A stretch of DNA of 64,000 bases from Datnioides undecimradiatus. Lineage: Eukaryota > Chordata > Actinopteri > Lobotiformes > Datnioididae. The notes under the pieces are model-generated. The model was not told the origin of the DNA. It saw nothing but the letters and a program-made list of their open reading frames with translations, and made no database searches. Location: contig WARS01000029.1 in assembly GCA_008933995.1 (NCBI GenBank), positions 16,739,131 to 16,803,130 on the forward strand. Direction: 5' to 3'. Both the position numbers and the translations under genes were made by a program. Shown piece by piece: positions 7,478 to 64,000 of the stretch (within the stretch, counting starts at the first letter, position 1; every line of letters starts with the position of its first letter).

Positions 7478-7481
7478 GGCT

Positions 7482-32920: not shown

Positions 32921-33022
32921 GTAACAGAAGAGGGAGAGCACAGTGTGACTGGGGGTGTCTACATCAGTCCCATCGGCAACGTCCAATCCCACGGTGAAAT
33001 GACACACACACGTGCTGTTTGA
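32921..33022 (+). CDS. atp8b3-like: possible alternative last exon of the atp8b3-like gene
   Basis: After a good acceptor (TGATTAACAG) the frame reads 33 residues and a TGA: VTEEGEHSVTGG, VYISPIGNVQ, then SHGEMTHTRAV. It is in phase with the internal donor after 30997, giving an 1183-residue product ending DDK-VTEEGEH instead of DDK-VTPSNN. The composition is protein-like rather than repeat-derived. It might instead be chance, since a matching phase has a one-in-three probability. I do not recognise the tail from any named protein. Confidence 0.35.
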   Translation, partial: VTEEGEHSVTGGVYISPIGNVQSHGEMTHTRAV

Positions 33023-33415
33023 CAGTAAATGCTGACGACATTTCGGGTCAGGTTATCAGTTGCCGAATGGTACTGCAGTTGGTTGGTCGGTCAGTCAGTA
33101 AGAAATGGTTTCAAATTTTTGCATGACAAATATTGCAACCCATATTAAAGGAACATAAAAAGAAACACTTTGTCTTCCACATAGGTACAAATGAGCACAC
33201 ATACACAGATCGAAGAAAAGCATGTAGACAGACAAACAGGTATATTCAAGGCCGCTCGGGCCTGTGTGTGTCCCTCTGATTAACTCCAAGTAAACAGCCC
33301 GTCTTTGGAAAAGCAAGACACACATTTCAGGACCCGAGTGAGGACCACAAGCTGAGGAATGAAGATTGAATGCTATTGATTGGGAGGAGAGGAGTTTGAC
33401 CTCCCCCAGCACACA

Positions 33416-33429
33416 CTGCCCCCTACTGT
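33416..33429 (-). promoter_or_regulatory. CTCF-like motif, imperfect
   Basis: Reverse complement ACAGTAGGGGGCAG fits the CTCF core except for the first C. It lies between the 3' ends of the convergent genes. Confidence 0.25.

Positions 33430-37034: not shown

Positions 37035-37091
<57 letters not shown>
37035..37091 (-). repeat. CAG trinucleotide repeat (CTG on plus strand)
   Basis: Nineteen near-continuous triplets, of which about 11 (37057-37090) are pure. Read in the onecut3 sense they are CAG. The repeat is about 1.1 kb past the onecut3 stop, so if the 3' UTR is long it is transcribed as CAG RNA. The poly-Ala, poly-Gln and poly-Cys frames over it are repeat translations and are not genes. 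Confidence 0.9.
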
Positions 37092-38216: not shown

Positions 38217-38509
38217 TCAGGCCTTGGAGAAGGTGGTTGCGGATGTGCCCGGCTGCCCGGGACTGGCACCGTGGTCATCGTGCCAGCGGTCCACACAGCG
38301 GCGTCGTGCATTCATAAAGAAGTTGCTGACGGTGCTAAGCTCCAGGCCAAGCTGCTGGGAGATGGTGATCTGCATTTCCTTGGATGGACGCTTGTTCTCC
38401 TTGAAGATGGCGATGAGTGTGCGGCGCTGCAGGTCAGTGAAGACCAGACGTTGTTTCTTGGGCGCCGTGTTGCGGTCCTTGTGTTGCTCCTGTTCTTTGC
38501 GCTTGCAGG
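38217..38509 (-). other. onecut3: onecut3 exon 2: homeodomain and C terminus
   Basis: The acceptor (CCACACCAAG) follows a pyrimidine-rich stretch. The first two bases complete an Ala codon begun in exon 1, giving the invariant LRLAACKRKEQEQ junction of all ONECUT proteins. The exon encodes the linker, the homeodomain and a short tail ending ATTFSKA, with TGA at 38217-38219. Confidence 0.93.
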
Positions 38510-39097
38510 CTTGGTGTGGATGGCAGCGGTGGGAGGGATGGGGATGAGAGTGGGAGGCAAAGAGGGGAAAGAAAACACAAAGCAAGGTAAATATACAAAA
38601 GTGACTTATTTTCATGACTGAATAACAAAGACAGAAAGTGGAGGGAAGTAAAGTAACTAAATGTATCATTAGCCAATACTTAAACACATAAAAACTAGTT
38701 TATACACCAGCAGAGATTCTACAGCTCCATCTCTATTGCCATATTAAAGTTGATTTAAAGCTAATCCATGCCTCCTGCCCAGTGGGAATATTCCTTCCAT
38801 CCTGCAGAGTGCAGACAGGGAGCCAGCCTGCGGTGAGAGAAAGATGGGGTGAGGAGAGGGGGGTCGGGGGAGGAGGTGGGACTGGCTGTTGCCTGCTAGC
38901 TGGAGACACTGCTGTTTGATTCAATATTAATGCAGTTTGAGTCGCAATGGGGGACTGAGTGACTGTTGCACAAAAGTAAGCATTTTGTGTGTGTGTGTGT
39001 GTGTGTGGAAATGAGAGATAGAGGAGGGGCAGACACAGGGAAAGAAAAGGTTGGAGAGGAGAGAAAAGAACAGAAAAGGTGGAGGAGGAAGACAAAG

Positions 39098-39141
<44 letters not shown>

Positions 39142-42100: not shown

Positions 42101-45100
42101 TTTACCTCCCGTCAGTGTGTGACCTTTGCCATCTGTGATTTATCAAGATGTGTGACCTTGCACAGGTATGCATTTGATCTCACACTCTTACTTACACACA
42201 ACATGTTTGATTTTGCATAATTAGACTGTTTTTCTTAAAAATTAAATGAATCAAAACGTTGATTAGAGGTGCAACCATTCTGGATTATTTGAACTTTCAT
42301 AGTAAAGAACATTTTACTTTTTGCAAATACTGTTGCTATCACTGTGTATTTTCAGGCAGTAAGATCAACAACGATCTATCTAATTACAGAGAGAAGCTTC
42401 TTCCAAAATCCATGAATTGAGTTGTTTCGAAGGAGCCAAGAAATCTGAGGGGTAAGTACCTGGTGAAACAAACAGTGGTTTGGTATTTCTAATTATATTT
42501 TTCGTACTCTGTTTAACTAAATTAACTTAAAGAGGGGGAAAATGACTTGATATTCATAAATTCTGTCTTTCTTTTTTTTAAACAATAAGCACACAAACAG
42601 TGAGCCAGTGTTTCTGTCTTAATGTGCCTACACGACTAGCTCAGAGTGTCCCAGCTTCTCTCACCACCTCTCTCCACCGGCGAGTCACGTACTGCCACCT
42701 CATCGACCGCTTGCTTTGTGCCGTTTCGGTCGGCAGGTGTCGCTCTCGCCGTGGCCCGGCTGCACGGGGCGCCATAGTGCGCTGCCTTTGCTACAGGCGC
42801 TGGATTTAGTAATCAATATCGATCGATCGGTGAGGAAGGGGGCCCTGATTACTGAACCAAGCTCAGCGTAGAAAAGAAAAAAAAATCGATCATTGCAGCT
42901 TTTAGAGCTACAGTAGGCACCGAGCAGAGAGACGGACATAAACTCATGCACAAAGAGCAACCGGACAAGAGCAGAAATCCCGGTGTTTTCTGAGGTGTGC
43001 ACCTGCTGCTGCCACACGGGCGGAGAGAAATGTGATTTCTATTACCCGCTATACGGAGCTGTGAACGAGACGCTGACCTACTTTGAATAGATCCCTTAGA
43101 CTCTTTACAAACCATGCAACGGCTATACGCTCGTCTTGAATTTCGTTTTTTCACTTACTAGTTTTACATTTTCGTTTGCTATAATATTGTAATATTAGTC
43201 CCCATGAATACAAAGCAGACGCCCAGTTAATCTCCATGAATGTCAAGTCAAGGGCCTCCTGGATCGACTTTAAGGGCCGCGCAGTCTTTTTCTCTTAAAC
43301 TATCAAATTCCTTAATGAGTGATTTTTCAACTTATCCTTTCTGCTCGGGTGAAAACGGTCTAACTCGGCCCTATTTCTCCTCCACTGATGACATTAATAT
43401 TCTTTGCTTCACGACAAACCAAGCGAGGTTAAGAGAAAGGCCCTGGGTGTTCAATATCGATCGATAGATTCGTGAATAATTCGTGTGTGAAATTCAGTTC
43501 GTCCAATTAATTATGCCTCGGAGGTGGGGGGGTGGTTGGGTGGTGGAGTTGGTTAGGGCCAGGCCTGGAGAGGAGATTCATGACGGGGTGGAGACGCGGA
43601 AACACACCAGGAGGGATGCGTGATGATCCGGTTTTCTTTTTATGGGCTAAAAATCCGAGAGAGGTTTGTAAAAGAGGAAGAATATGAAAGTATGATCACC
43701 ACCTTGTCTGTGTGTGTGTGTGTTCCTCACAGCTGTCTCAGGCCTCCTCTGTCCCTGCAGGTGTGAGTCCATCTTCGGCATTAATCATTTATTGATCATC
43801 ACTGCCCTTCCTGCTCATAATGAGAAAGTCAAACGGCCTAATATTGCGCCTGTAGTGGTTTATGAAACCATGATTACACATCTGCATCTGAAATTATTCC
43901 TGCTCCCCGCTCTCCAAACTCTCCTCCCGCTTTGCAATGCACTCCTGGAGCCCCGTGTGTAAAGCGAACGGGGGTCAACGTCTGCTGATTTAATTAATTT
44001 ACCAATAAACATGTTTACCGGTTACGGTTCGGCGCGTTTATCCACACGCACACACGCACGCGCACACACACTGCAGCGCGTTTATTGTTGGAAAGCAGTT
44101 CTGTCCTCACCAATAATCTAAGCGGGGCCGGTTTGCTTGTAGTTGCACTCTTCTCCAGATTGTAAGAAGCATGATTGGGCAATTTGATGTTTGGGCTATT
44201 TATTAAGTAACGTCTGTGCTGTTTCTCATGGGCTGTTGCCCTGAAGATTGATAGCAGCGTGTGTATCTGCGCGGCCCTTCTCTGTATACTGTGGCATTTA
44301 TTTCATTCTGGCTGCAGGGCAGTGCCAAGCTCTCCCTCTCTTTCTCCCTCTCCCTTCCTCGCCAAAACACTTCCAGCTCAATACTCAATAATGTAATGAG
44401 TGAGAATTGGTGTTAATATACTGATAAAGCGACACAATTTGTTTGTTTGCCTTCTTCCGCGACTGAGCTGCGAGGCATTTCTTCTCCAGCACTTCAATAA
44501 CACTCAACCTGAACTCAGTTACACCCTGAACCAGTTCGCCCACATCCCGCCTCAGCTAAGTCTCAGCCTGGCTGCCTGCAACATTTTTACTTTCACCTTT
44601 TGATCATCTGCACCGGAATTTACATTTAGATTTTGTTAAACATATATATTCATATATGTTAAAAAAAAAAAAGAAAAGGCTGTAATTTTGATGCACTCTC
44701 AGACAGTTTGAGATGCACAAAATGAACATCATAAATATAATTTTATTCACCTCTTTTCACACCAACGTGTTAATGGCAACCCGGTGGTAAACCTAAGAAA
44801 TTGCATAGTGCTAAAAAAGAAAATCAATAATCAGTAAAGGCTGCTCCCTGTGATGATCACGCTCCTTATGAGGTTTTAGATAATTAAATGCAGTGAGCCA
44901 TTGAGAGAACCGTATGACTGAAATTTAACGTGCATTATTATTATTATCATTTGCCAGCTTAATAGCAGCCTTTGTCTGCATGTGTCACTTATTTGTAGGA
45001 GTGGCCCCATTGTTAGACTGATACTCTTATCTGCGATTATCATTGATTTTATTCATAATTGCTTTGACCAGTTATGCGTGATATAGCGGTAACGGTAATG

Positions 45101-46799
45101 ATGCTTTATTTTGTGGGGACAGGCGGGCCTACGGTTTCATTTCCCACAGACAACAGGTGTGGGCCCGCTGCTTGTGTTTTTCTGTCATTTATGAATTTAT
45201 TATAGGAGGACTTTTTAGAAAATTATGCTCGAATTGGATTCTGATGGCACCGGCTGAGTGTGCATGGAATTTTAAATAAATAAAATGGAAAAAAAGAATA
45301 ATACTCACATAACTTTTTTTAAAAAAACCCTCAATAAATAAACAATTTAATCGCTCTAAAATTCAATGCAGCTCATAAACAATTAATTAAAATCAATTAA
45401 AATTTAAAGTCCTGACCCCTGCTTGTGCTGAGGGTTTGGTTTTTTTTGGATAGTGTGCATGAGCGGAGGGTGGAGGGGCTCTCTGGCCGGGCACTAGTCC
45501 CTCCTGTCCGGGGTGCATGCAGGTATGTAACCGTTGTCAGGACTCAAACCCCCACTAGGCTTCTTCTCGTTTGCCAAACAGAGTTTTCGCACTTTTTAAA
45601 GCTGTGTAAGTCTGCCAGTGGCTCATTTAGACTAAAACACGTTGAAAACAAACAGAAAGGAGGAAGATTTTTTTTTTTTTTAAAGCAGCAAATTGACTTT
45701 TCTTTTCTTGTGAGTATTTCTCACAATTTACACAAAATACATTTACACCACAAATGTCGAGGTGTAAAGATTTATCAGAGTTACGTCGCAGGCTTTCATC
45801 GAAACGTGTTCATATTCTTGAAATGTCAGCTGTCACTCCTCTGCTAATTTCTTATTTGTCGCAGGAGAATCAGCCAAACTGATCTGCAGTCAGAAGATAC
45901 TGTTTACTCTCTACGGGGAGACAGACAGGTTTTCAATATGCAGGAATTTTCCAGATTCAATTCAATACAGTCCTCACTCAATCATGTGAAGACAGAGTCA
46001 ACAGATACATTTCTAAACCAACCCTTATTGCGTCGACATAATTGCATTTATATGGTCTATTTCCCCAATGCTAAACAAAGCATATTAGACTGAAGTGTGT
46101 TTATGATTCTGTAGCACGTTAGTCTCTTTTACTTTAGGGTTATTTTCATTTGTGTTTATTTTGAAAGCTATTTTCTCGAAGGGCCATTTGTTGAATTTTG
46201 CAAGTTAGTTTAAAAATCGTTTTACTGCCCAGAGGATTTATATAGGCGCTCTGTATCCGTTTTATTTATTTATCTATTAATTTATTTTTAAAAGATTGTT
46301 CCAGATAATCGTGGTAATTAATTAGTGCGCCACATATACAAATAATGACAACAAAGTCTGTTGTAGTACAGACCAACATTACGTAAATAATGGCTACTAA
46401 TTTTAGATTATATATTTGATTGAAATCTCATTTTTAAACTGCAGTAAGTAATTGTTTTCAACCAAAAAGAAAAATCAACACACACACACACACACACACA
46501 CACACCTTGCAGTGTATTTTTTCTAAACATTTAAAATCCCGAATAACTAAAGAAACAGTCAAGTCAGCGTTTTTATATCGGCTCAGTAACGCATCAAATT
46601 AAACAAATTATTAATTGCAGAATAACCCGCAGCATGTTCGTTATATTTAATAACATGTAATATAAAGGCTGTGCGCGCTGACATCGATTCATTCATCAAT
46701 TGATTTCACAGTCGTTTTGTTCCTTTGTTGATCTGTGTGGGGTTGCCCAACCGGAGTTTCGGGTTGCATCTGTGGGTACGATAAGCTGTGCGTGCGAGC

Positions 46800-46857
<58 letters not shown>

Positions 46858-48311
46858 GGTTTTGTTGTGATCGACCCTGTAGAACGACTTACAGGGGTTC
46901 CGTACAAACCATCTGTAGGCTCTCATTTCAAAGGGGGCCCGGTGAGCTCTTTACCTGCTGTTTTGGTTTCCACGTGACTCCGGTGGATATTAATCCGTGA
47001 ATTCAAAGAGTGACTAAACGACTGTAACTTAACCTTTACTGTCTCAAAAATGTCTATTTGAAGACCACATCTTACTGTGTTTTGACTGTTTTCAAAATCA
47101 TATACGAGTAAAGCAAATTTGCAAAGAACGGCTTTGTTGCATAAAGAAATGATATTGTTTTTCTTTTTAACCCAAAACATTGCCACTTTTTTTTTTTAAA
47201 TGAAGAAATAAGTGTAATAATCTGTCTTCATATACAGAGATCTTCACCTCAGTTTAAGAGATTTCTTGCTTTTATAGAAATCTTACAGTGTTCAATTGGA
47301 TTCGTGCCTGCTTTTCTCTTTAATTGCGTGGACAATGTCCTTGCCTTGTATTCTTAGGCGGCGCATTAAACAAGCCATTATCGGGCCTTTAATAACCGAT
47401 GGCCTGTCAGGGCTTCAGATAAGCGACCAGTGTGCAGGACACATCGCTGTCTCGCCACTGGACACCGATTTATAACAACACCTCTTTTTAAAAAAGTACT
47501 TATTTCCCATATTGTCTGATTTATGTGACCGACGGTTACCTGAATGTTGAAACCTGGGGTAACTGTTTGCTCAGTAAAAATAGAAAGTTGGTAGATTCAT
47601 CAATGTGTGTGTAGTATTTCGTAACCGTCAGTGGTTCAAAAGACACTGTATTACGCTGAATGAGTTGCAGATAACACAGTGGTACTTGTGCATGCGCGCA
47701 GGACGCACGGAGACAGACCCAGTTTTTTGGGGGCATCCCGGCGTTACATAACAGCGGGCTGTGCTCCACTCACATGGCGCTGATGTGCTCCGGTCAACAT
47801 TTTAATTGCACAACAGCCTGCTCTTTGGAACCGTCATCTACTTTGGGCTTTTATGTAAACCACTGCAGATTGTGGCAGGTCAAAAGCCACCACAGTATGA
47901 TTTGTTTGTTCATGAGGCGCCTTCACACACAGACACCGACTCTGCGTTCAGCCCACACTGTAAAAATCCTATTTTCTTGTGCAGGTGTTTGACCGTAGAG
48001 CTCAGGGACGAATGGCATTTAATTATGATTATTTTAAATTTGGACCCTTTTTTTTGTATTTTCGCCTAGAAAAGGAGGGGGGTACCATTAACCCTTTGAT
48101 GCTAGCCGCGTGCATTCAGTCGACTCTGCCAGCAATTTGATTTAAAGGTCATTCTCTCCTATCGATCCGGTTTGGCGAGGGGGCGACGGAGTAGCGTAGG
48201 AATTGATCATCTAAAATAGAAGAGACGGTATTCGAGACTGTACAGAGTCCAGACCTCTACTGCATTTATAATTGCTAAGCACGCACCCCGTGTGAATTGG
48301 AACGAGGTGTA

Positions 48312-48358
<47 letters not shown>

Positions 48359-51300
48359 AGAGAAATGGGTGAAGATGTGGGAGACAGAGCGAACTGCTGC
48401 TTCTGTCGCTAATCTGATTTCTATTAAAATTACATTATTTTGAATAATAAGGTCGACTTGGTCAGAACAGTGTGGGTGGGATGTATAATGAGCGAAAAGA
48501 GGTTAACAGTCTGTGAACTTTAAGTCGTCTCGCGCTACCAAATCAGTCTCCACTACAGAAACCGGGTGGTAGCTGTACCAAAACCCTCCCGATTTTAAAG
48601 TCAGCGTTTGACTGTTTTGACCGGAGCACGCGGCGAGGTGTGCACCGGGCCAACGCGAGAGCACGCGTTTATTAGTCATTCTGTTGTGTGTTTTTTGAAG
48701 GGTGAGCTGTTAATGGGAGAAATGGTGTTGCATGGTGGAGATGGAGAAGTGGGGGTTGCATGGCTGCATGGCGCAGCTCCAGAGATGGAAAGCAGAGGCC
48801 GGGGAATGGAAATCGATACAGATTCAGGGCTCGCCAGATCGGCCTTAACAATGTGGCGCAGACGCACTCTATATCCCGATCACATACACACAGGAGAGAA
48901 GGAACTGGGATGCGACACGTATGCAGGCTGTAGCTGCTGCTCTCATGTTGTCCTGTGTTATGCAGCCATGCAGTGGTGAATATGAACCTTACAGGAAGCA
49001 CGAGCCTCTAGTTGCAGTCATGTTGATGAACAAATTCACATTTTAGGGTGCATGTGTTTGTTAAAACCCTACATCCCTGTATGACTGCATTCTGATGATG
49101 CATTCTGTTATGAATATTCACAGCAGCCGACTACGTATAAGTTTATGCAGATTTTAAAGAAGGATTCATTGACTTTACCCTCCACCACATACAGCCAGCC
49201 TCTTCATAGCCGGGTTGCAGATAATGATGCAAGGCGTGAGATGTCATTTCATCTGGAATGAGCTACACTGAACCCGGGAGTTAAACAAAATAGCCTCGAG
49301 GTATAACCTCAAGAAAATGGCTGTTGCTCCCCCACCAGAGGATTTCAAAGGCGATGCTTGTACATGCGTGTCTCAATACTTACAGCACACGTTGCTGTGC
49401 TTAACGAACAACGAGTCTCTGAAACCACAGCTGCACTGTTTACCCCCCTATCTTCCCCTCACACATCAATTATTAAAGTACCAATCGATCATTTCGCAGG
49501 CAAACATCAAGCCATCTCTTCATGAAAAAAAAAAATCCTGTTTTAGATTAACCCGCATCAATCACATCTTAATGCCCTATCCAATTAAACCCATTATCCT
49601 GGCTTAAATGACCCAAAAGAAGCACCACTCCTGACTATTTTTGTTGCTGTGGGATATTTTGGTGAGCATCCCAAAAATAAAAATGACCTCCAGTTTGTAT
49701 TCTGCAGCTCAATAAAAAAAAAGCCAGAGATGTGATTTAAATAGAAGCCCCGGTTGGCTTCGTGCTGCACTGGAAAGTAGGGTGCAGGGTGGTGTGATTG
49801 ACGCGATCGTGGATTGTAATATTGATCGATGGGTGGAAGCTGTTGGATGAAATAATGGTGTTTAGGGCCTACAAGAATACTATTAAGTATGTATTGGTGA
49901 AACTCCAGTTCGCCACCTTGAACTGCCCTCACTGTGGACGTGGACCCATATTTCAGCACTCTGGACAGCGCCTTGAAACTGACCTGCAGGAATAAACTAG
50001 TGCCTCTTCATAATGAATGTTTTGTAGAGGGAAATAAAAAGCAGGTTGTAACAAACACATGCGGATAAATCTATTTCACTTGGACGAAATCAATCATTCA
50101 TACCTTCTTCTCAAAGATTCTACCTTTTTGATGCAAACAAACAAGATAAAAGCCCCAAATCAACTGCGGACTAAAATGAAGGGCACAGACCGTGGAAAGG
50201 AAACTGATCGAAAAAATATTTTATCAAGGAACATGAATGTAGGCATTGCAGTGATGCACGCGTGGAGGGGAAAGGGCGCAGTGTGACGGGGATGGGGGAT
50301 GGTGGATGGGGAGGAGTATTGCTCCAGGATTAGGCCTGTGTAAACGGCGTGTAGTCCATTGAAACATGAATAGGGGCCTCTCACCCTCGTTCTCGGCAAT
50401 GTTTTTCCTCTGTGTCCTGGGGGTCTTGACCTGCACACACTGGCACGTGCTCTGGCCATTCAAATGGTAATAAACCAACTGTGCTTTTTTTTTTTTTTTT
50501 GAGGGATGCCATGGCACCTAATCACTGTCATATGGAAGAATGAGGGGAGAGGGTGTCTTTTACCACACTGAGAAATAGGATCTTGTGCCTCGTGCCGCTG
50601 CAGCACACAACGCGCCATTTGCGGGGATGCACCGGACGTTTGATGATATAATAAAATATTCCCTGTGTAGTCCAGCTCCTGTCTGGAGAGGCGTGTTGTG
50701 CGTGAATATTACGCTAATTTCTCTATAACCCAAGCCCCAGAAGGACGAACGAGTGAGAGTGCATTACAAGCAACAAACAGATCATGATTACAGCAAGGAA
50801 AAAGGTGTGCAAAAGCGCTTTTTTAAATAACAGCTGTCCTATTTCCCCCCTTTTCCGGCTCCTGCCTCCCCCACACTCTGCTCCAGGGGAGAGACCAATG
50901 GGAGAGAGTGCTGAGGCGGGATAATTGATAGATGCACTGGCTATCCTTATCGATCAGGGCTGTATTGACCCGACCAAATACATTGAGATGGAGTGTGGAA
51001 TTCAACACAGATGCAAAGACGAATTGTTTTCATCGTTAATGCGATCTTTAAATGCCTCCCAAACCTCACTTTGCCCGCGTCTTTCTTACTTGTGCAGCTT
51101 TACAATGAAGCTACCTATTTATTTATACAGCAGTGGACTCGTGCATTGAGATGTTCTGAAAATGTATAAAAAGACATCTAAAGGTTAAAGCTTTTTGCAG
51201 GGCCTGCGTGTCTGTGGGTCTGCATATGAAGAACACAATAGGTGGGAAAGCCTGTGGGTCTTTGCCCTCGTTGCATTAGGAGATGTTAAGCGTGAAGGGC

Positions 51301-54300
51301 ACGCATTCCCCCCTAAATGGGCCTATCTCTGCTCTGTTTTTCGTTCCAGGGGTGGATTGTCATGTGTGTGTGCAGACAGTGGCATTTTCACATTAGCTAA
51401 GCAGGGCAGCAGCATTGATTTGTGTGACTGTGATGAATTTGGAATAGTAATTTGAATTTATTGATTGATGTGGCCGAGCGAGTATAGCCCAGCCTCACTT
51501 TCAGTACCACCCCACCACCCACCCACCCCCAACTCCCACTCCCAGCCCACATGCGCACCGAGGATAATGGTGATTTTAAATGCAATAAGTAAAATGTTGC
51601 TCCGCGCATTTACATACAAGTCATTTGTCATTTTGCCCAACTGGATTTTACTCTGAGACCTATTGTGACAGCATGCACGACACACAATAAGCGCTGGAAA
51701 TCTGCTGATTCAAGGAAGAAAAATAAACATGTTTCATGAAGATGTAGAATAAATGTATTTACAAATTAAATAATTAATACCATCTATCACTACTGGGACA
51801 AATTAAGATAACATTGCATCCTTAATTTCCATTATTCAACCAAATACACACACACAGATACACACACCTCACACCTATCGGCTGCTCTGGGCCTGACCAT
51901 CGTTAAAATATGCAGTAGGTGTGCACTGCACAGGACTGTGCCACTCCAACATGTCAATTGGATTGGAGGGGGGGGTTATCCTGATGCCGGGTGTGGAAGA
52001 TATAAAACCCCACAGCCCAATTAGCTTTAACAGCAGTGGCACTTAAAGAGACAATTGTGGAGTGTTTAAATCTTTATTTACCAGAACCCCACTAAATGCG
52101 CAAAGGAACAATTTACATGCCATTAAGTGCTTTTCAATAGGGCATTGACTGGAACTAAAATATGCCACTATATCTGCTTAATTGAACTGTTCGCTGAAAT
52201 ACGACACAGAAGCGCTGATTGACGTTTGGGAGCGCAGCACGTCTAAACAGGGCCTTTACACAAACATCAATGAGAGGGGACCTCTCACTCACATCTCTGT
52301 TTAAACCCCACTGCGACGCCTCTCGTTTTCACTTGCGTCCTGTTAATCAGGTGGGAAGTGTTAAGGGGTTTAGAGGTGGCGCGAATCTCGGTCCAAATCA
52401 CATCCTTTGCGATGGAAATCAAACGGTGGATGAGAAATGAACCATTTCGTGTGTTACTGATCAAAAGGGATGTCGAGTTATCTTATATCGTGTGCACACA
52501 TACAGTGTAACTTCACAAGCCACAATAAACGCCATTCCTCACTCTCAGAAAACAGGCCCTAAACCAACTTTTGAAACCAGACAGCACAGAGTGCAGAGGA
52601 GACAACGCAGGCCAGAGAAAGACGCATCTGTTTGTGTCTCCGTCTTTCAGATCCAAATCGATCATTTATCAGTGTGCTACTCTGAAAGGGGACGCCTGGA
52701 CCTGAAATATTGATCCATACGAAGTCACGCTCCTCCGATTCTTTGGCCAGGCCTCAGACGATCCTTGTTTGCGACGACGCGCTTATTTGACAGGGGGGAG
52801 TAACAGGAGTATCGCATCAAGTTTGTTTGGAACAAACTGGAGATTTGAGTCTCAGTGATCTCAAAAGTGTAGATTTGTTTTGCTTTTAAAGTAAAAGCCG
52901 CAAGATGTAATCAATTTTAGTGACATCTTGCTTTGATTTCCTTTGTTTGGTCTCTTTCCCTGTGTTTTTGTTTGTGTGTGACTTGGAGAGAGAGAGACAG
53001 GGAATGAGGCATAGACAGTGGGACGTGTACATCCATGCTGTGCCCGTGCGTAAAACCTCCACATGTGCGTAAGAACAAACACATCTGTGCAGACTGCGTT
53101 TGCACGTTATCTGCCTTTGAGAGATGCTTCCTCTCTTTTGTTTGTAACACATCCAGTGTTGCACAGCGTCTGTTTATACTATCATGGATTGTAGCATCAA
53201 TCAAAATATAGATTTCCCCCCAACATTTAACACCCCAACTGTCATGATGAAGTTTTACTCAATACAATCGACTAATAACTTCTAGTAATGTCTGTTTGAG
53301 CAGCTATTGACAGTCTCGCCACATTGACTTCAAATTGATCCCTCCACATCACTCAGGTTGGGAGCTGTCTCCTCACTCACCTGCAAGCCTGAGAGCCGAC
53401 ATCCGCTGGAACTCGGGCTCCTGGAGCCACTTCCACATCCTCCTGAACGTCTCCCGGCCAGACTTGAGTTTACTCCACGGTTTAGGATTCCGCAGCAGGT
53501 CAGACAGAGTTCCCTGGGACCGGCACAAGATCCTCTGAGCAAAGATGGCCTGGGGGATGCTGTAGCGCTTGAGCTCTGCCGTTATTCGCTGTGCCACCTC
53601 TTTGGTGTTTATCTCCTCCACCTGCCCTGACCCAGCTCCCTGCCCGCCTCCCACCACCGTCTGCCTGTCCCGGTCTGACAGCATGGACCCGTTTGCCTGA
53701 GAGTGCGGATGGCTGTGATGGTGTATGCCGTTCAAGGATGTCATGAGCCCGGCCCCGTGGCCACCGAGACCCCGGGTGAGGTGCTCCTCGCCCCGGGACA
53801 GCATAGCTGCGTGGGACTCGAAGCCCCCCGAGGAAATCATCTTGTCGTTGGAGAGGTGAGCTCCGGGGCCGTAGGCGCTGAGAGTCTGCTGGGAGCTGTG
53901 CAAAGACCCCAGACCGTTAGACAGAGGGGATAGAGGCTGCCCCATGCCGGACATGTCTTTGGGGTAGTGGCCGTAGAGGTTACCCATTGAGGCGAGGCTT
54001 CGGTCGTCCCTCATCAGAGTGAAGCTGCCGCTGACGTTCCCGGCTGCGAGTCGCTGGTGCGCCGGATGATGGTGAGCATGTGGGTGTGGATGGTGAAATT
54101 TCTCCGAGACTGTGGATATGGGGGGCAGGTGCTGCAGCGGCGTCAGCGTGGTGTAGGTGCTGCTCAGGCTCATCCCGGAGTCGCATGACATGGTCATTGC
54201 CGGATGCAGGGGACCAGACAAAGCGTGGTCTGTGCGGTAGTCCCCTGCTCCCTCCAGTATCGAGGCCATGGACACCATGGCTGACCGCCCGTGCGACACC

Positions 54301-54416
54301 AAGTTCCGATGCGACGCCGACGACTGGCGCGCGTGTGGGGAGTTCATTAAGTCGCTCGTTTGATGGGAGTGAGATACACCGTGCAGATTTCCAATGTTTT
54401 CCATTGTAAGCTCCAT
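38217..54416 (-). CDS. onecut3: ONECUT-family CUT-homeodomain transcription factor (ONECUT3), two coding exons
   Basis: CDS is 54416-53381 joined to 38509-38217, 442 residues. ONECUT proteins are nuclear activators that bind ATCGAT/ATTGAT-type sites through a single CUT domain plus a divergent homeodomain, in neural, retinal, liver and pancreatic development. The CUT domain is about residues 267-346 (begins EEINTKEVAQRITAELKRYS); the homeodomain is about 362-422 with the family's diagnostic NFFMNARRR (Phe48, Met50). The N terminus MELTMENIGNLH aligns with ONECUT3 MELSLESLGGLH, whereas ONECUT2 starts much earlier; the C terminus ATTFSKA matches ONECUT3 ATFSKA. The protein is shorter than human ONECUT3 (494 aa), which is rich in Ala/Gly/Pro runs. 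I cannot tell whether this is the a, b or another fish copy. Confidence 0.93.
39102..39138. repeat. (TG)n microsatellite
   Basis: A near-pure TG run of about 37 bp; a shorter one precedes it at 38985-39007. Both lie just inside the onecut3 intron near exon 2, within purine-rich DNA. Confidence 0.9.
41560..41780 (+). mobile_element. Tc1-like transposase fragment
   Basis: From 41604 the plus strand reads FISQQDDKPEHAVKAC and then LPPQSPDLNLTEHL (ending near 41726). These match the second catalytic Asp block (FQQDNDPKHTAK) and the Glu block (PQSPDLNxIEH) of Tc1/mariner DDE transposases, at slightly less than the standard 34-residue spacing. Upstream parts are in other frames and interrupted, so this is a dead fragment. 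It is unlike the 11.2 kb remnant in sequence and strand. Confidence 0.65.
42676..42830. promoter_or_regulatory. CpG-dense intronic patch with ATCGAT sites
   Basis: I count about 16 CpG dinucleotides in roughly 125 bp from 42676 to 42800, far above the surrounding intron. The patch runs directly into two overlapping ATCGAT sites (42818-42827). It could be an unmethylated enhancer, an internal promoter of onecut3, or a non-coding RNA start. There is no supporting ORF. Confidence 0.4.
42813..43465. promoter_or_regulatory. cluster of five ONECUT-type ATCGAT sites
   Basis: ATCGAT occurs at 42818, 42822, 42885, 43456 and 43460. The one at 42885 reads AAAAATCGAT, close to the in-vitro ONECUT consensus. 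The sequence TCAATATCGATCGAT is present twice, at 42813-42827 and 43451-43465. The hexamers are directly visible; that ONECUT proteins bind them is family knowledge, and enhancer function is inferred. Confidence 0.5.
46801..46853. repeat. (TG)26 microsatellite
   Basis: A pure TG run of about 53 bp in the onecut3 intron. A (CA)n run of about 27 bp precedes it at 46479-46505. Confidence 0.95.
48315..48355. repeat. (TG)n microsatellite
   Basis: About 40 bp of pure TG in the onecut3 intron, 150 bp after the ATCGAT site at 48161. Confidence 0.95.
53381..54416 (-). other. onecut3: onecut3 exon 1: N terminus and CUT domain
   Basis: The open frame extends upstream to 54452 but begins there with GTG, so the first ATG, at 54416-54414, is chosen; it also matches the ONECUT3 N terminus. 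Conserved blocks visible are SAMVSMASILEG, TYTTLTPLQHLPPISTVSEK, a His/Pro-rich stretch (about residues 100-118), NVSGSFTLMRD and the CUT domain. The donor follows LRLA plus one base. Confidence 0.93.
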
Positions 54417-54860
54417 CGTTGAAAGGATCTTTATTTCCACCCCTCTCGCCACTCTCTCGCTCTCTCCCTCGCTGCTCTCCCTCTCTCACTGTCGCTCTAT
54501 CTCACACTCCTTTCCAATAAATTTTGAACGATTTCAAAGCCAAGCCATTGATTGTAGTTGCCTCTCTGCAGTCAATCCAGCATGGTTTTAAAAGATCGGG
54601 TCCCAGCCGCCACACAAACTGCGCCGCAAACCTCTGCTCGGTGTGTGTGAAGGTGCGCCTGCCTGGATTTCTCTCGCTGTAGAGCACCTTCCAATATACC
54701 CAAAGCGCTGCTCTGCTCTCTGTGTGTATATTGACGCGCCCGCGCTCATGTTAAGATGAGACCGAGCCTGTGCGCATGTGCGCGCCCCCGTGGTGTATCC
54801 TCGCACTCGCGCACTCTGTCTGGGGCCAATCTGACGTCACTTGCCCCTATGTCATGGGTT
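54417..54860 (-). promoter_or_regulatory. onecut3: onecut3 5' UTR and promoter
   Basis: This stretch is GC- and CpG-rich, forming an island with exon 1. At its far end a CCAAT box (54826-54830) abuts a perfect palindromic CRE, TGACGTCA (54832-54839). An NRF1-like TGCGCATGTGCGCG lies at 54771-54784. There is no clear TATA box, as expected of a CpG-island promoter. The transcription start is probably between 54500 and 54770. Confidence 0.55.
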
Positions 54861-56325
54861 GTTCGTGTTGCACACTGAGCCTCAAATTCCTGAAAAAGAT
54901 TGCATTAGACACTTGTTAAGATAAAACACAGAACTGTTATCCTCTGCAATGTGTGCAACATTTACACTCAGATGGATAAGGAGCACTAGCGCCTTGGTTT
55001 CTCTGATAAACCGCCTGACACGGCGCCAGCAGCATGTGATGCCTCTCTTGAAGGTTAAATATTAATTGACATGTGTCACATCAGGCCACGTTTTTTTGTG
55101 ATGAAAAAAACCGCAGCTTCTCTTGAGGTAGAGGTCATAGCTTATAGCCAGCGCCTTTATTCTTTTTTTTCATACATTTCAGATGCTTCTTGGTGCCTGG
55201 AGAGAATTATTTGTAGATGTAAATGAATTCTTTTTCAGCGTTTAAAACGTGAGATTCACGGCTTCAGACTGCGTGGTTTGACCTTTGACAAGTTTAAATG
55301 ATAACCAGCTTCCCAGCAAAATTACATTTGTGTCTCTGCTTTTACAATCTTAGAAGTAAACGGTCAAATCCTTCTGTCCAATGTCTTACGTTAAGCATTC
55401 ACTCACAACTTTTCCTTACAAGTGCTTTTTTTTCCTCCAGCAAATGTTACTGAATAATTCTGCCGAGTTTCATTTCATCATAGCCTCTAGGCTTTGACCC
55501 CTTTGGTATCTTTGCTCCTCGGATTCGGGCCACGAAAATCAAACTCCCTCACCATAATGTTTTTACAAACTTCTGTATAAAAACTTGCTGCTCGCTGACG
55601 TCAATCCAGGTCAGCAATCCATCAATGTCAAACTATGTATGGATCAGGAGATGCATCGATAGGTTGGTGCCTATTGCAGGAGCCCGCAATATGGATGTGA
55701 TATAGCAGCACGTTCAGATCGAGGGATTGGTTTCTGTAAAGGGCTAACGAGTAAGTCACACGTTTTGGGGTTGAAACTGACTGTTTAAAGCTGCCGTAAA
55801 GTTGTCAAAAATAAGTTTTCCATCCCCTATAAACATCGAGTATATAGCTTTATTGCTTCCTGTTATGGGGTGAATGTAAATGTCATGCGCGAGCCCAGAG
55901 TGGTATAGCCAATATTCCAGTATTCAGTTTGTTTAAACTGATAATGTTGCATTAGATCGCCAGCAATATACTTTAGTGAATGAGGAGTTTGTGGTGATAT
56001 TATATATAGTTTGCGTTTTAATGTGAGGTTTTATTGTGTCTCTGTGTGGGCGCAAAAATATCTAGAGATTTTAATCAACACCCGCTCAGACACGCCTAAT
56101 CAAAATCCGATCATAATAGGTTTCACAAATATAAAGCATTTACTGCAGGAAAGTTATATACTGGATTATTTTATGTCATATTTCTGTGTTTGTATCTTCC
56201 AGTTGTCTATAGGGTGAGATGTAGTGAGACGAGCGGCACATGTAAGTGCTGGAAAAGCGTAAAAATCACAACATCGACACCTTTTTGACGTGTTCAGACG
56301 TGTTTGAACACAGTGTTGAGTCTGC

Positions 56326-56327
<2 letters not shown>

Positions 56328-56379
<52 letters not shown>
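56328..56379. repeat. (TG)n microsatellite
   Basis: A pure TG run of about 50 bp, 1.9 kb upstream of the onecut3 start codon. Confidence 0.95.
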
Positions 56380-56382
<3 letters not shown>

Positions 56383-57509
56383 ATCCCACCGATAACCACA
56401 ACAGCAGCACCCCAGCAGGCCTTCAGATGCTCTGTAAACTATGTGAACATTGTTACTAAGTGAGAAGCCTTGGCATTTACACCGATGTTATGTAAAATGA
56501 GGCCATTAGGATTTCGACCCGGAGCTGGAAAAAAAATAGTCTAACAATCCAGGAAGTGGCATCACTAATCATTTACAAATTGCATAAAATAATTTCCCTG
56601 ACCAGTGTTTACCAACAGTTAGGTCAAGGCCATCCATAACTCCACTGATGAATTGTGATATCAGTGGCCTTGGCACACTGCTCCTCTCCCCCCAAAATAA
56701 TGACCCTAAAAACTGTGTCTTTGCTGATTGCCAACGGGGGATGGTGGCTTTTGGCTTGTGCCATCAGGAGAACAGCAGTGTCCGCTTGGGTTAATGTCCC
56801 TGTATTGATCCCAGCAACCACTGCTATCGAAAATGAATTACCGAAGCCCGCACAGCAGCGAATCCGTCATCTGTGCTCAGCCAGCCGGCCAGAGCAGCTT
56901 ATTGGTCGCGGTGGTGATGGATGTTAACTTTCATTGCTGGCTCCTTGCTCCTAATTCACCAGGGTTTACAACCCAAAACAACGAGTTGAAAAGTTTTATA
57001 CTTTCACCACGAACTTGTAAACTTCATACCAGTTCACCTCCCCCAGTGATTTCTTTTATTAATTTCTACCGGCTCCCCTGCGCCATGGCTGGTCATGATA
57101 AACTCCACTCAGATAAAAGAGCAGGGTGAACAGGGCGCGAACTGATCAGTGTACTTTTCACATTTGAAATCAATGCTGTTCTTTTTTTATTTTATGCAGC
57201 TTGGTCAAATCGTTCATTCAGTAAACCAAAATAAAATTTGAATGCAAAGTAAACACAAGTTACCCCCTCCCCCATTAAAAAAGAGAAAAAAATCTATGTA
57301 CACGCCTAGAGCTCAGTTTTAATTTGTATTTTAATGTACTGTTTTCGAATACTTAAATAAGCATATCCTATGGCAAATACAATATGAAATATTAACAGTG
57401 TCGATATCTGCGGTGTGACTGGGGCGATGCCGCAGAGACCCAGTGATTTATTTCATATTAATAACAGCGGGCGAGGCGGTGGCCTCAGCACCACGTTGGC
57501 ATCGACTTT

Positions 57510-57582
57510 ACACACACACACACACACACACAGACACACACACAGACACACACACAGACGCACGCACGCAAGCACACACACT
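57510..57582. repeat. (CA)n microsatellite with CAGA interruptions
   Basis: CA repeats are interrupted three times by CAGA and end in CACG/CAAG units. The Thr/His-rich frames over it are artefacts of the repeat. Confidence 0.95.
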
Positions 57583-58517
57583 GCAGCGATTGTGTTTTAG
57601 TTTATTTGTTAATAAAATGCAATCTCATTCCAGAAAAGTTGCAACATATTTTATAATATTTTGAACATGACTTACGTTGATTCAGTACAATTCGTTTTAA
57701 AAGTCACCGGAGCTCAACGTTAAAGTCTTTTATGAGGCCCAGAGCATTTTGTTTTTATCTTTAAGCACCGCTGTCGTTTGCTGATCAGCCAATCAATGCT
57801 GAACCCGGAGCTCCGCTCAATGCATTTTCAGAGGGATCGATGGGGCCAAAAATGCATTCTGCTAAAATGGTTTAAGTCCTGTTATGTGTTTGACCTGTCT
57901 CAACAGGCAGTTTCATTGCAGGAAACGACCACATAGCACTCAGCTGAAAAGTTTGAGCTGAGCTTTTCATTTGGCTGAGTGCTGCAGAGTTTGAGTGAAA
58001 ACACATTACGTTTAATTTATATTTCGCTTTTCTAAATTTTAGCTGTATTCGAAATTATTATTATTATTATCATTATAATTATTATTATTATTATTAGAGT
58101 GTTGTGTATTTTAAGAAATAATTCAAAACCATTTTAATTTTTAGATTTACGACATATTTATATTTGCACCAGGTCGACGATATATTGTTATTTTAATAAT
58201 TTTTTTATTTGATCGTATTTTATATAAAACTCGGTGTGTTAACTGGAGGTATTTCTGGTGGGCCAGCTCTGCCGTATAAGCTTGTCTATTTTCCCAGGAA
58301 TCACTCGATAGAGAGAGACTAATCTTTTCATGACTTCTTGAATGACTCCGTGGCTGATGCATCACGCTTAATGTATTCTAAAGTATATTTACTTGAATCT
58401 GGCTATTGGCAAAAGTTAAGTAGCAGTGTTTAGTAATGTCGCATTGATCAGGCCTCTGAGCAAGTCAGCGGGACGGGGGGCTGCTGCTGCTCTCATCCCA
58501 ACACACACACATACGCT

Positions 58518-58550
<33 letters not shown>
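58518..58550. repeat. (CA)n microsatellite
   Basis: About 33 bp of pure CA, followed by a short TG/GA run at 58628-58660. Confidence 0.9.
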
Positions 58551-58552
<2 letters not shown>

Positions 58553-59814
58553 ATAAGGCCTTGTTTGGGGAAAAAAAACTTACACAACATCTGCCTTGTT
58601 TGCCTATGGCTCCACTTTAAGTAACCCTGTGTGTATGTGTGTGTGTCTGAGAGAGAGAGATATAGAGAGGAATATACTGGGCTATTTTTAACATCTGTCA
58701 TTCCCATTGCAGTCAGATAACATGTTTAAATGTGTTTTATATAAATCACTGTTTTACTAAAGCGTGAATTGTTTTGCCGTGCAGCGGGTATTTGTTGTGC
58801 TGTTGTTGTTTGAAAGGCTAAATATTGTTTATTTCTTTTTTTTTAAAAATCCTGTCACTACAGCTTTTAACGTGTCGCCTCGGCTTCAAACATTTTCTAC
58901 AAAGTTTCAATAGGCTACAGGCCAAATCAATGCCACCCTGCATTTTGAATGTTACCTGTTTGTCCTGTTAAATCTTTAAACGGCAGCCTACTGTTAAAAC
59001 TGCTTGGTTCACAGTCAGAGCTCTGCGGCCACTTCTAAAAGGCCTATAATGATAAAAAAAATAAATCACTTGCTCATTGAATCGCTGTGTTTGTAAAGCG
59101 TTTGCCTGCAGTTTGTTAAGGAATTAGTGTGTTGCCGCAGATTATTATTTAGGTAGGCCTACATTTGCATTTGAAAGGGCCCAGCAATAGAGGACTGTAG
59201 TGATCAATAGCCCCGGTGCCATATCGATCTATCCGCAGCCTGATCGATTGACAGAAAGAATTGGGCGCACATCTCTTCTCTGCGCTTGGTTTCATTCAAA
59301 ATGAAAGTCAACTTCTGTAGAAAGAGACGCTGTTTATTACAGTAGACCTCTAAAATATTATGACAACAGGTGCCAAATAAGCCTGGCACGCCCACCTTAG
59401 GAAGACTGATGGATCAATAATCAACACACACCTCAAGAACCTCAAGCAAGTCCAGTCGCCTTCGTACAGCAACTTCAAATATCACCAAGACTAAGAATCT
59501 GCATATTAGCAGTAATAACGAACGTATGTTAATGTTTGCTGAAAAATGCCCAACTTAGATAATTGGTATATATAAAAATGTGGATATTCGTAAAATATGA
59601 AGTTCAGGTCAAGGAGGAGCGAGCGCATGTTAAAACCTCATTTGCTGTTATAAGAAGAATAAGGTTGTAAGTGGCACTGCTTTTGTTTTGTCAGTTTAAT
59701 GCGTGAAGTCATTTTCTTGTGGCTATTTTGCTTGACTATTCTGACATTTTTCTATTTTATCGAATAGAAACTCAAACAATTGAAATTATATTTGTATATC
59801 TTTTAAATCTGTTA

Positions 59815-59861
59815 TATATATGTATATCTATATAGATCTATATATAGGTCATCTACGTGTG

Positions 59862-59911
<50 letters not shown>

Positions 59912-59976
59912 GGGAGAAAGAAAGATGCCATATATATATATATGTATATGTATGTATGTGTGTGTATATATGTGTG

Positions 59977-60022
<46 letters not shown>
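59815..60022. repeat. compound (TA)n/(CA)n/(TG)n microsatellite
   Basis: A TA-rich lead is followed by a pure CA run (59864-59908), a short unique spacer, then TG/TA units and a long pure TA run ending at 60022. The TA part could extrude as a cruciform. Tyr/Ile-rich open frames here are repeat translations. Confidence 0.95.
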
Positions 60023-60023
<1 letters not shown>

Positions 60024-62219
60024 GCATTAAGTGTCATTGAAGCCCCACAGATTTATTTAGATTGTGACAAGCTGTTGGCAGAAATAACCATCGCTCCAGG
60101 TGCGTTCACATGATGTCACTACCCAATCAATAGAGCTACTAATCACAAACACATTCAATAGAATATTGATCCGATTGGGCTGGATTACTAAATGTTTTAC
60201 GGATTAACTCGCTTTTTCACTTTCTTTCGGACACCTCCAACTTCAGCTGGCGAGGCCTCAAAGTGTTAATGAGACGGATTTATCGTGCTGACAGCAAAAG
60301 GGTATAAATAAGTTAAACAATACCTGAGAATCAGACCTGAAACCGGAAGCTTTGTAGTCTCAGAATTAAATACCACTAATTATTTAATTTAATAAAAATT
60401 TTTTGTCTGTTTTTTTTATTTTAACTTCGGAGCATTTAAACATATTTTTTAACTTCCAAAAATTAAAAAGTAAGACAAAGATAAAAAATTCTAAACACTA
60501 TTTTTTAAAGATATGGAATTATATTACTGTGTGTGTGTGTGTGTGTGAAGAGAGAGAGTGTGTGAGAGAGAGAAGCGATAGAGAGAGAGTGTGTATTAAA
60601 GTAGGAGACTGTGTGTGAGCATGTTAATTTTAGTCGTTGCAGAATTATATTTTGCTGTCAGTGCTTTTGTGCTATTGTATGTGATGGGTTGATGGATGAA
60701 TGGATAATGCTTATATTTGACAAAAGCTCTCTTATAAATTGATCAGAAAGCCAACTGACCTGAGCCGAAAAGCTGATCAGATGCAAATGAAGCAAAACAG
60801 CTGTGGACTAATTCTAATGTTTTATTTTGTGTTTACGAGCTTGCTGCTGTTTGTGTTTGACTGAGGACATCAGTGCCCAGCATAACTGTAGTGACCTATT
60901 ACAGGCATTTAGGTAAATGCTTGGGTGTGTGAGCCTGTGTGTGCAGGATTGCAACTATGCGTGTGTGTGTGTGTGTGTGTGTCTGAATGCGTTTTAGTGA
61001 CAGCCATCACACAGCAAAATAACTCACAATGTATATTAATGTGTATTTTTTAAATTTTTGATTAAATTTTACCTTTTACACACCGTCTGACACTTCTGTG
61101 TGTTTTAGATTCTGGATTAAAAGTGATCATAGGTTGTAATGTGTGGATGTATATGACTCTGGCTCTGAGCCTTCATATCCTTACATTTATTACTGCCTCA
61201 TAGATTGTGAATTAGAATGATTATAGATTATGTCATTATGTGTTATCTTACAAGCCTAGTTAAGAGCATTATTCATTGTTAGGCTCCCCTGCCCTCCTGG
61301 TTTTAAACCTGTTTTTTCCTTCTTAAGCACTGCCACTAGCAGCTGGTTATTGGGCTTAAAGAATAGCCTACACATCATCTTCCTCAAAGGGATCAGACAT
61401 TAGGGTGTAAGATCAAAAGGATAAGGTCTTAAGAAACAGAACAATGCCTCATGCACTGTAGCTTATTCTTATTCCTCGCATGTTAATCAGGGATTGTACA
61501 TAGACCACTTTAAACAGCTTTTTTGTTTTGGTATATTCATGCATCCGTGCACAACACGGTAATTCCCATAGCCTGAGGTTTAGAATATATCCTCACTTGT
61601 TATTGTTTTAATTTTGTACCAAAATCGCATTACTTGTTCCAAATGGTGTAACACAACACACAACACATAATTGTTTAATATAATTTTTGTATCTTTGCAA
61701 AGAAGTCACAGTGTTAAAATCAGAAGGTACAGCAAAATAACAGCATGGATGTTGTTTTTACTGGAAATATCTTGGAAGTTTTTGCTTTTTTGCTCTTGTT
61801 TTTTTTATCTCTCCATGTTGTGGAGACAGAAAAAAAGGCGTGGGTAAATTTAAAGGAGTGCAGGCTCCACGGTAGCGCTTTATTTTCTGAGGCGACTACG
61901 CTGTGAAACAGTGACACAGCTTCAGGGGTGTGATGGACCGCTCAGCTGGATTAAGTAAGACTCACATACAAAAACAGAGCCAGTGACCTACTGATCATCC
62001 TGGCTCCTATATCAAACATTTTCTAGGTGTTCTACAACTGCAGCACTTTTTTTTTTTTTTTTTAGAGGGAATAAACGGTGAAAAATCTCTTTGCCAGTAC
62101 CGTTTTGTTATCTTGTAAATCTTTTTTTATATTCATCAGCCAAGTAGTGAAACCTCACACACAGAGTATGAAAGGGAAACATGTATCGGTCAGAATAAAT
62201 GTGGAATCAAGTACAATTG

Positions 62220-62530
62220 GCTTTTGCTTAACCCCCCCACCACCCACACACCCATACATGCCCCCCCATCCTACCCCTCTTCCTTCCACCCACCCACCCC
62301 TCCCCTAGTGAAACTCCCACCCTCCACACCCGATAGAGCACCCGTTGCTAAGCGACAGAGGGAGAGATGGATTGAGGAGACATAGTCGATCAATTCTACA
62401 GAGAGAGAGGGAGAGAGGAAGGGAGGCAGGGGGGAGAGAGGGAAGGGAGGGAGGGAAAGGGGGAGGTAAAATAAAGAGGGAGAGAAGAAGAAGGAGAGGA
62501 GAAAGAGAGAGGAGAGGAGGGGAGGACAGA
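62220..62530. repeat. C-rich tract followed by polypurine GA/GGA tract
   Basis: The stretch 62225-62315 is dominated by C and ACCC units. From 62355 to 62525 the same strand turns almost purely purine (GAGA, GGGAGG, GAAGG). Such tracts can form G-quadruplex or triplex structures. No gene is supported by the Arg/Glu- or Ser/Leu-rich frames here. Confidence 0.8.
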
Positions 62531-64000
62531 ATGCAGAGTGATTGCAGTCGTATTGAGGCTCCAGTTCGGGCTGAAGACGATCTTTTGAAACATCTATCTT
62601 TGTTAACTGTATCGTGCCGCCGAAAATAAATCCATCTCTGCAGCTGTCCACCCTTCCATCTTTGTCCAAGTGCTTTGCTTTAATACTTTTATCACTACAA
62701 ATTACAGTCCGCACAAGCAGCCTGTGTTTAATATTCCCACACTCAAAAGAGAGTTAATTGTATATTGCATGCACTCTTTCTCTCCGGGCTCCCTCTCTTT
62801 CTCCATTAGTCACTGCTAGACACACACGCACACACACAAACATGCAGATGCCCGGCAATACCACATGCCCCTCTGTGTGTGTGTGTGTGTGTGTGCAGAG
62901 CTGGGTGTTGAGCGCATCGACTGAGTATCGATCCCACCACTCACCTCCCTGCAGTCAGCTCTTGTCCTACATAGCATGCCCTGTCTGATTTCTCCCTTAA
63001 TGGCTTTTATCCAGCTCCAATCTTTATTTAAACTGAAAAGTAGGAATTAGCACCCACTTCTGTCCTAGTCTCTCTTACCTTTTCTTTTCACTGTCATCTC
63101 AGAGCAAGTATCGGCAAGTATCGGTCCATTGACCCTTCTCCCTTCCTCCCCTGGCTATGATTGCTTTCCCACTCAGAAATATGCAGTGCAGTGTGTTACT
63201 TCCATTCCTCCTGGTTTCTCAGTGTGAATATCTTCATCCCCATCGTGTACAATCAAGGTGCTGTACGTTGGGATGCACCTAAAGATTATTTCACATATTG
63301 ATTAATCCTTCGAATACTTTGTCGATTCACTGATTAAGAGGTCAGCTCATAAATGTCAGAAAATAGGGAAGAACGCCGATCACAAGCTGCAACGTTGAAT
63401 GTCTTGTTCTGTCCAACCAATAGTCCAAAACCCAATGATGTTCAAATTACAATCACATAATATAAGGGAAAGCAGCAAATCTTGATTTTTACGAGACTGC
63501 GAGTAGCAAGCGTGAAAATTGACTGAATTGTTGCCTGTTACTCTTCTGCAGATCACTAAACAATTGTAGGACAGGCTCACTTTTTTCAAGTTTTTCTTAA
63601 AAACACTAATCACCTGCCCGTATGTGTTTTTGAAGTGTTCCCAATGCAATTTTATTGCACCTGAAATCTGCAGTCCTCATTCTGTGCAGAAATGCCTCCT
63701 AAAGTTAAGCCAAAGCTAACACGAGGCTTCAGCTCTCTGAATTGTTTTAAACACAAAATGCACAGAGAATTTGTTCATGTGGGTCTAAAGGAAAGGCTCT
63801 AACCTTGTCCTGTAACAGCTGCAGCTCTGAGCTGTATGCACACCGTATTTCTATGTTATTTGATTTAAATGCCATCAGTCAATTGTAAAAGGGATCAGGA
63901 GACAACTCAAATTATGTTTATGTCCTCACCCTGGATTGTCATGGCAACAGGGCAGACATCTCAGTCTTCAAATGAGCGACATTTATTCTGCGCAGACTAC

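Follow-up and report, generated by a model that had tools for sequence, protein, structure and literature searches.

In the 64,000-nucleotide stretch of the Datnioides undecimradiatus genome analyzed here (hereafter, the window), the hexamer ATCGAT is concentrated across the intron and upstream flank of onecut3, where it probably belongs to a locus-wide array of CUT-homeodomain sites of the form ATCRAT (ATYGAT on the opposite strand), most likely serving auto- or cross-regulation by ONECUT proteins. All 21 ATCGAT positions given in the original prediction, which was made from the letters of the window, proved exact: 17 lie within 42813–62932, and 4 lie before it. In the region from 42818 to 62932, to which we refer below simply as the region, 12 of the sites fall in the onecut3 intron, 5 upstream of the gene, and none in its two exons. 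Two pairs overlap, each reading ATCGATCGAT (42818/42822 and 43456/43460), so that the sites amount to 19 clumps in the window, 15 of which lie in the region.

The assignment of the minus-strand gene to onecut3, already proposed at the outset, is borne out by its CUT and homeodomain exons (Pfam, and a PDB comparison of the CUT exon). The first coding exon (53373..54485, minus strand) contains a long N-terminal region and the CUT domain (Pfam CUT, 3.3e-34), and its best PDB relatives are ONECUT2 (8t11/8t0f) and HNF6 (2d5v). The homeodomain exon lies at 38217..38699 on the same strand (Pfam Homeodomain, 7.2e-11), with the stop of the frame at 38217 and the 5′ part of the open reading frame presumably belonging to the intron; the intron itself, whose limits are approximate (38700..53372, minus strand), holds 12 ATCGAT and 25 ATCAAT/ATTGAT. 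The locus is predicted to encode an ONECUT protein with intact DNA-contact residues, as RSQG in the CUT domain and NARRR in the homeodomain are retained when matched by eye to ONECUT2 S364/Q365, N476, and R479/R480.

Excess of ATCGAT and its variant at two onecut3 loci

The local excess of the core hexamer over genomic background is significant. Dinucleotide shuffling of the whole window yields a mean of 6.84 ATCGAT (maximum 12 in 100 shuffles) vs 21 observed, and shuffling confined to 1-kb blocks, so that local CpG and GC content is preserved, gives an expectation of 2.84 ± 1.71 in the region (maximum 10 in 500 shuffles) vs 17. Genome-wide, there are 46,998 occurrences in 581,297,614 bases, or 1.63 per 20.12 kb, and the region is approximately 10-fold enriched over this average. 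Such a genome-wide count had been named in the original prediction as a result that might overturn it; the prediction survives the count, the comparison being with the genome mean and the spans not matched for composition. A sample of random stretches from the same contig (14 of 10 kb each, spaced 1 Mb apart within the first 13.5 Mb) contains 9 ATCGAT in 140 kb, and beyond the end of the window the hexamer nearly stops, with 1 in the next 60 kb. The genome is overdispersed for this word, with 8 ATCGAT in one 20-kb span (about 637–657 kb) within the initial 1.02 Mb of contig C2; a Poisson p-value is therefore not meaningful, and we do not rely on one.

The variant ATCAAT/ATTGAT provides an independent test, as it was not counted when the region was first delimited. 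It occurs 35 times in the region, 35 times in the preceding 42.8 kb, and 104 times in the 140 kb of random stretches (14.9 per 20.12 kb). Counted together as ATCRAT, the sites number 50 in the region vs 19.9 ± 4.8 expected from local 500-bp shuffles (maximum 37 in 200 shuffles), while window positions 1–38216 hold 36 vs 38.2 expected; simple repeats were masked in these shuffles, which hid 2 of the 17 ATCGAT.

Searching the genome with the CUT exon revealed a second onecut3 on contig C476, with 81% protein identity. Further matches were found on C495 and C464, at a more distant onecut-like locus on C307, and, more weakly, on C328 and C463, which we take to be cux/satb genes. By best PDB match of the CUT domain, and with small margins, C495 appears to be onecut1-like (HNF6) and C464 onecut2-like (ONECUT2). 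The two onecut3 copies are old, since 63 of 143 fourfold-degenerate sites (44%) are identical between them, and we infer an origin in the teleost genome duplication. The second copy contains 10 ATCGAT and 39 ATCAAT/ATTGAT in 17,975 bases lying outside the aligned exons. When hexamers from both onecut3 loci (52 kb) are compared with 246 kb of other sequence from the same genome, ATCGAT is the top word after two AC-repeat words (28 observed vs 3.4 expected), and the next are GATCGA (34 vs 5.9), ATCAAT (96 vs 37.7), TATCGA (21 vs 3.6), and TATTGA (83 vs 32.6).

Conserved noncoding blocks between the copies

The excess is common to both onecut3 copies, and the positions of the sites mostly are not. 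Apart from the aligned exons, 12 short blocks of alignment link the copies at an expectation value (E) of at most 0.1. Eight of the 12 reach E < 0.01 and do not consist mainly of microsatellite sequence; 6 of these are collinear with the exons in order and orientation, and the remaining 2, at window 40119–42903, are inverted relative to the second copy and fit a single inversion of the 40.1–42.9 kb intron segment. At E ≤ 0.1, 8 of the 9 ATCRAT sites of this copy (two of them just past the window end) and 8 of the 11 of the other are kept, which places ATCRAT first among 6,144 one-degenerate hexamers with a mean kept rate of 0.23. At E ≤ 0.001 it is kept at 6 of 6 sites here and 6 of 7 in the other copy, and shares first place with the overlapping GATCRA. 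The number of kept sites is 8 with only repeats masked and 7 when three microsatellite-bearing blocks (including 48808–48892) are dropped. In a control that fixed every ATCRAT and shuffled the rest, the 200 trials never exceeded 3 blocks and 2 kept sites, vs 10 and 8 observed. Judging by these small numbers from one genome, ATCRAT sites are under selective constraint in the aligned blocks. Conservation, on which the original prediction had also staked itself, was thus found in the form of ATCRAT kept within aligned blocks, over a scope of two copies in one genome.

A conserved noncoding element at 42821..42903, inverted in the second copy and 79% identical over 84 columns, keeps the ATCGAT at 42822 and 42885, the latter (42885..42890) lying within a 22-nt stretch that is identical in the alignment of the two onecut3 copies. 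A repeat origin was considered and rejected, because the 19-nt core of this 42.8-kb element occurs at two places only in the genome and a search with the element finds no third match at E ≤ 0.001. Direct repeats in 42500–63500 (14 families listed, mostly microsatellites) lack ATCGAT; inverted pairs in the same interval were viewed for the longest 25 of 613. As a separate observation, a dispersed repeat-like sequence carrying ATCGAT triples in near-identical spacing occurs on C4 and other contigs among C2–C20 listed, with no bearing on contig C312.

The block at 48808..48892 aligns ATCGATA at 48812 with ATCAATA in the second copy, the block at 62338..62405 keeps ATCAAT 62389, and a block lying 1.3 kb beyond the end of the window (L001 1320–1474) keeps one ATCAAT while one ATTGAT faces ATCGAT. 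Two of the kept sites are swaps between ATCGAT and ATYGAT in the two copies. A weak block at 52641..52715 (E 0.005–0.008) keeps ATTGAT 52709 and also contains ATCGAT 52657, the sole site not kept in register; a second weak block (54527..54586, E 0.06–0.1), directly upstream of exon 1, keeps ATTGAT 54547.

On the other side of the gene, seven blocks at window 32864–36035 (minus strand), 79–92% identical between the copies and situated 2–5 kb beyond the stop codon, appear to be a long onecut3 3′ untranslated region (UTR). These blocks had been considered as exons of a neighboring ATPase gene; four were translated and gave no convincing frame, and the blocks were therefore dropped as evidence of synteny. 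One of them contains what we take to be seed matches for miR-9 (ACCAAAG) and let-7 (CTACCTC) in both copies, and another contains a presumed miR-124 match (GTGCCTT). A TGC repeat of approximately 19 copies (92% matches) lies within the presumed 3′ UTR at window 37035–37091.

Candidate binders and rival explanations

The ATCGAT core is common to most CUT-homeodomain proteins, as stated in passages of PMC4077741. When ONECUT1 and ONECUT2 were crystallized on DNA (PMC11490551), a conserved serine was seen to contact N7 of either A or G at a variable position, and position 8 may be C or T; aligning these structural positions with the sites here would give ATYGAY as the predicted site. We compared the densities of 20 words per 10 kb, given below in the order this copy, second copy, and random stretches, and found that ATCGAT (7.0, 5.6, and 0.64) and ATTGAT (16.1, 21.7, and 7.4) are among the strongest. 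ATTGAC (7.9, 7.8, and 3.9) and ATCGAC (4.1, 1.1, and 0.43) are raised, which weakly favors the ATYGAY prediction, and ATTGAA is hardly raised (7.9, 7.8, and 6.4). The test is thus mixed, and the prediction is borne out in part.

The original prediction had proposed autoregulation or cross-regulation by ONECUT paralogues, and as far as an array of CUT-homeodomain sites goes, it is supported by the enrichment of ATCAAT, the excess in the second copy, and the retention of aligned ATCRAT. Under the reading that we favor, a homotypic array of such sites, spread over approximately 20 kb of the onecut3 intron and upstream flank, would be bound by Onecut3, and by Onecut1/2 where these are co-expressed; bound ONECUT would feed back directly on onecut3, most likely positively, and the feedback would hold onecut3 expression in differentiating neurons. 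Overexpressed ONECUT factors open chromatin at their own motif, according to passages of PMC6582315. Selection would keep the number of sites, with most single positions turning over and a minority retained in conserved elements. Because ATCGAT is palindromic around its CpG, C-to-T deamination turns it into ATTGAT or ATCAAT depending on the strand, and either product should still be a site; decay to a product of this kind would explain the ATCGAT/ATYGAT swaps between the copies. A more elaborate proposal, which we advance tentatively, is that of a distributed autoregulatory array marking onecut3, in which the total dose of sites over approximately 20 kb, rather than a single enhancer, would have been kept by selection in both copies since the ancient duplication, with the motif buffered against CpG deamination and ATCGAT and ATCAAT acting as two strengths of one site.

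Several observations weigh against the reading of an ONECUT-bound array. The parts read of the onecut1-like locus (20 kb, 2 ATCGAT) and the onecut2-like locus (8 kb, 1 ATCGAT) show no enrichment, with 3 ATCGAT and 21 ATCAAT/ATTGAT in their combined 28 kb, so that general cross-regulation among onecut genes, the broader part of what was originally proposed, is unsupported. (The onecut-like locus on C307 has 1 ATCGAT in the 3.3 kb read.) Taken alone, ATCAAT is modestly high (35 vs 17.0, with a maximum of 32 in 200 local 500-bp shuffles), and the top 14 degenerate hexamers in the same shuffles are microsatellite-like and do not include ATCRAT. Words that are not expected sites are raised too, including ATTGAG (7.0, 7.2, and 4.2 per 10 kb, ordered as above), ATCGAA (2.5, 2.8, and 1.2), TTCGAA (3.3, 2.2, and 1.0), and ATAGAT (8.3, 18.4, and 4.4). 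ATCGAC reaches 1.8 in the other onecut stretches, a level no lower than that of the second copy (1.1). The aligned sites are few, with 12 of the 17 ATCGAT here and 7 of the 10 in the second copy lying outside aligned blocks. Retention of ATCRAT also extends to the presumed 3′ UTR blocks, at 2 of 2 sites in this copy and 2 of 5 in the second, although enhancer binding is less expected there. Finally, ONECUT matrices show a preference for A in the 3′ flank, and this preference is not seen, A occupying position +1 of ATCAAT in 36% of cases here vs 34% in background. In that flank the array may depart from the CUT-homeodomain pattern; it resembles the core described in passages of PMC4077741 and PMC11490551 in its exact ATCGAT and its tolerance of either purine.

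The rival that survives best, although we consider it unlikely, is that CUX1/CUX2, which have the same ATCGAT core, read these sites in place of ONECUT, so that onecut3 would be a Cux target. Cux1 represses reporters carrying the shared core in experiments mentioned in PMC4077741, and the flank preferences here do not favor ONECUT; on the other hand, the array stands on both onecut3 copies, as self-regulation would give, a pattern with which CUX is still compatible.

It is quite unlikely, in our judgment, that weakly methylated developmental chromatin simply kept its CpGs and that ATCGAT rose along with them without specific selection, and this explanation is already weakened. The observed-to-expected ratio of CpG is indeed 0.67 in the region vs 0.37 before it; dropping the 19 clumps on CpG positions places at least 15 of them in some 20-kb span in 88 of 5000 draws; and TTCGAA, ATCGAA, and some other CpG-containing words are raised two- to three-fold. 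Elevated CpG content accounts for part of the ATCGAT excess, but not for all of it, because both per-CpG Fisher tests and the ATCAAT excess go beyond it. Per CpG, ATCGAT occurs at 17 of 611 in the region vs 4 of 655 in the preceding 42.8 kb (Fisher p 0.003), and at 0.026 in the second copy vs 0.0038 in random stretches (Fisher p 7e-5) and 0.0046 in the onecut1-like and onecut2-like stretches (p 0.004), whose combined CpG density is comparable (23.5 per kb vs 25.6 and 21.6). ATCGAT is likewise an outlier among the 16 NNCGNN palindromes, with 17 in the region and no other above 6. The enrichment of the CpG-free ATCAAT and the selective conservation in aligned blocks also speak against mere CpG retention.

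Use of the sites by another factor with an overlapping core, such as the Miz-1 zinc fingers or a homeodomain of PBX/TALE or PAX type, seems very unlikely. Among the 10 flank variants represented in both sequence sets, TGATCRAT is the most enriched (24 in 52 kb vs 17 in 246 kb); Miz-1 zinc fingers bind ATCGAT in vitro (a passage of PMC4077741), and a PBX motif is enriched in opened regions of low ONECUT score (a passage of PMC6582315). However, neither locus contains the PAX-type word TAATYGATTA; TGACAG shows no increase, and TAATTA is less frequent. Chance combined with after-the-fact window limits is scarcely credible: the limits were chosen in making the original prediction and the genome is overdispersed (witness the C2 span), but an independent excess is present both in ATCAAT and in the second copy, neither of which was used to pick the region, and the second copy contradicts it.

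Homotypic clusters of transcription factor sites, in which many copies of one factor's site lie near a target, are a general class at developmental genes. An ONECUT-bound array at onecut3 would be an instance of a homotypic autoregulatory cluster with an unusual spread, which we regard as the most likely, if unproven, reading. Unlike a typical homotypic cluster, it extends over approximately 20 kb of intron and flank rather than one compact enhancer, and both copies show the excess with positions mostly unshared. It would be like the autoregulatory loop of Ciona Onecut (Pezzotti 2014, as cited in passages of the review PMC10515288) in that a onecut gene sustains itself, there together with Neurogenin; unlike that tunicate loop, it concerns a fish onecut3, covers approximately 20 kb, and is known from sequence alone. 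Among the titles and abstract openings of the matches listed in our literature search, no cluster of ATCGAT or ONECUT sites at onecut3 is reported. If the reading is true, the locus would offer a vertebrate case of dose-based autoregulation open to site-by-site testing in a fish with two natural copies, would make self-sustained Onecut expression testable in a vertebrate, and would show that a CpG-centered motif can last very long in a methylated genome.

Arrangement of sites and other features

By sequence count, the intronic sites begin with the overlapping ATCGAT pair at 42818..42827 (42818 and 42822, with an ATCAAT at 42812), and a second overlapping pair lies at 43456..43465 (43456 and 43460). 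ATCGAT 46683, ATCAAT 46695, and ATTGAT 46699 together span 46683..46704, and a single ATCGAT occupies 48161..48166. A local cluster at 49465..49830 comprises ATCGAT 49484 and 49825, ATCAAT 49465 and 49557, and ATTGAT 49821, and is followed at 50924..50954 by ATTGAT 50924 and ATCGAT 50949. Upstream of onecut3, single ATCGAT are found at 55655..55660 and 57836..57841, and ATCAAT 59203 combines with ATCGAT 59223 and 59243 in an upstream cluster at 59203..59248. In the second copy, three ATCGAT lie together 2.4 kb upstream of the exon; no alignment was found between this triple and the 59203..59248 cluster. The last ATCGAT of the cluster lies at 62927..62932. Past the window, ATCAAT/ATTGAT is still high, with 30 in 20 kb (64001–84000), and ATCGAT is down to 1.

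Among the words compared, the control ATAGAT is raised at both onecut3 loci, above all in stretches L033–L035, and stands at 11.1 per 10 kb in the other onecut stretches. Window 63274–63335 weakly matches (E 0.011) sequence that lies upstream of the onecut2-like exon on C464; the two have TTAATCAATA in common, possibly as part of an older shared element. Rfam at gathering scores gave no structured RNA match in the window, and the CUT exon, scanned once against viral contigs and once against prokaryotic ones, gave no relative. Elsewhere in the window, a long open frame at 6380–7519 (minus strand) encodes a bZIP domain (PF07716) and is presumably NFIL3-like.

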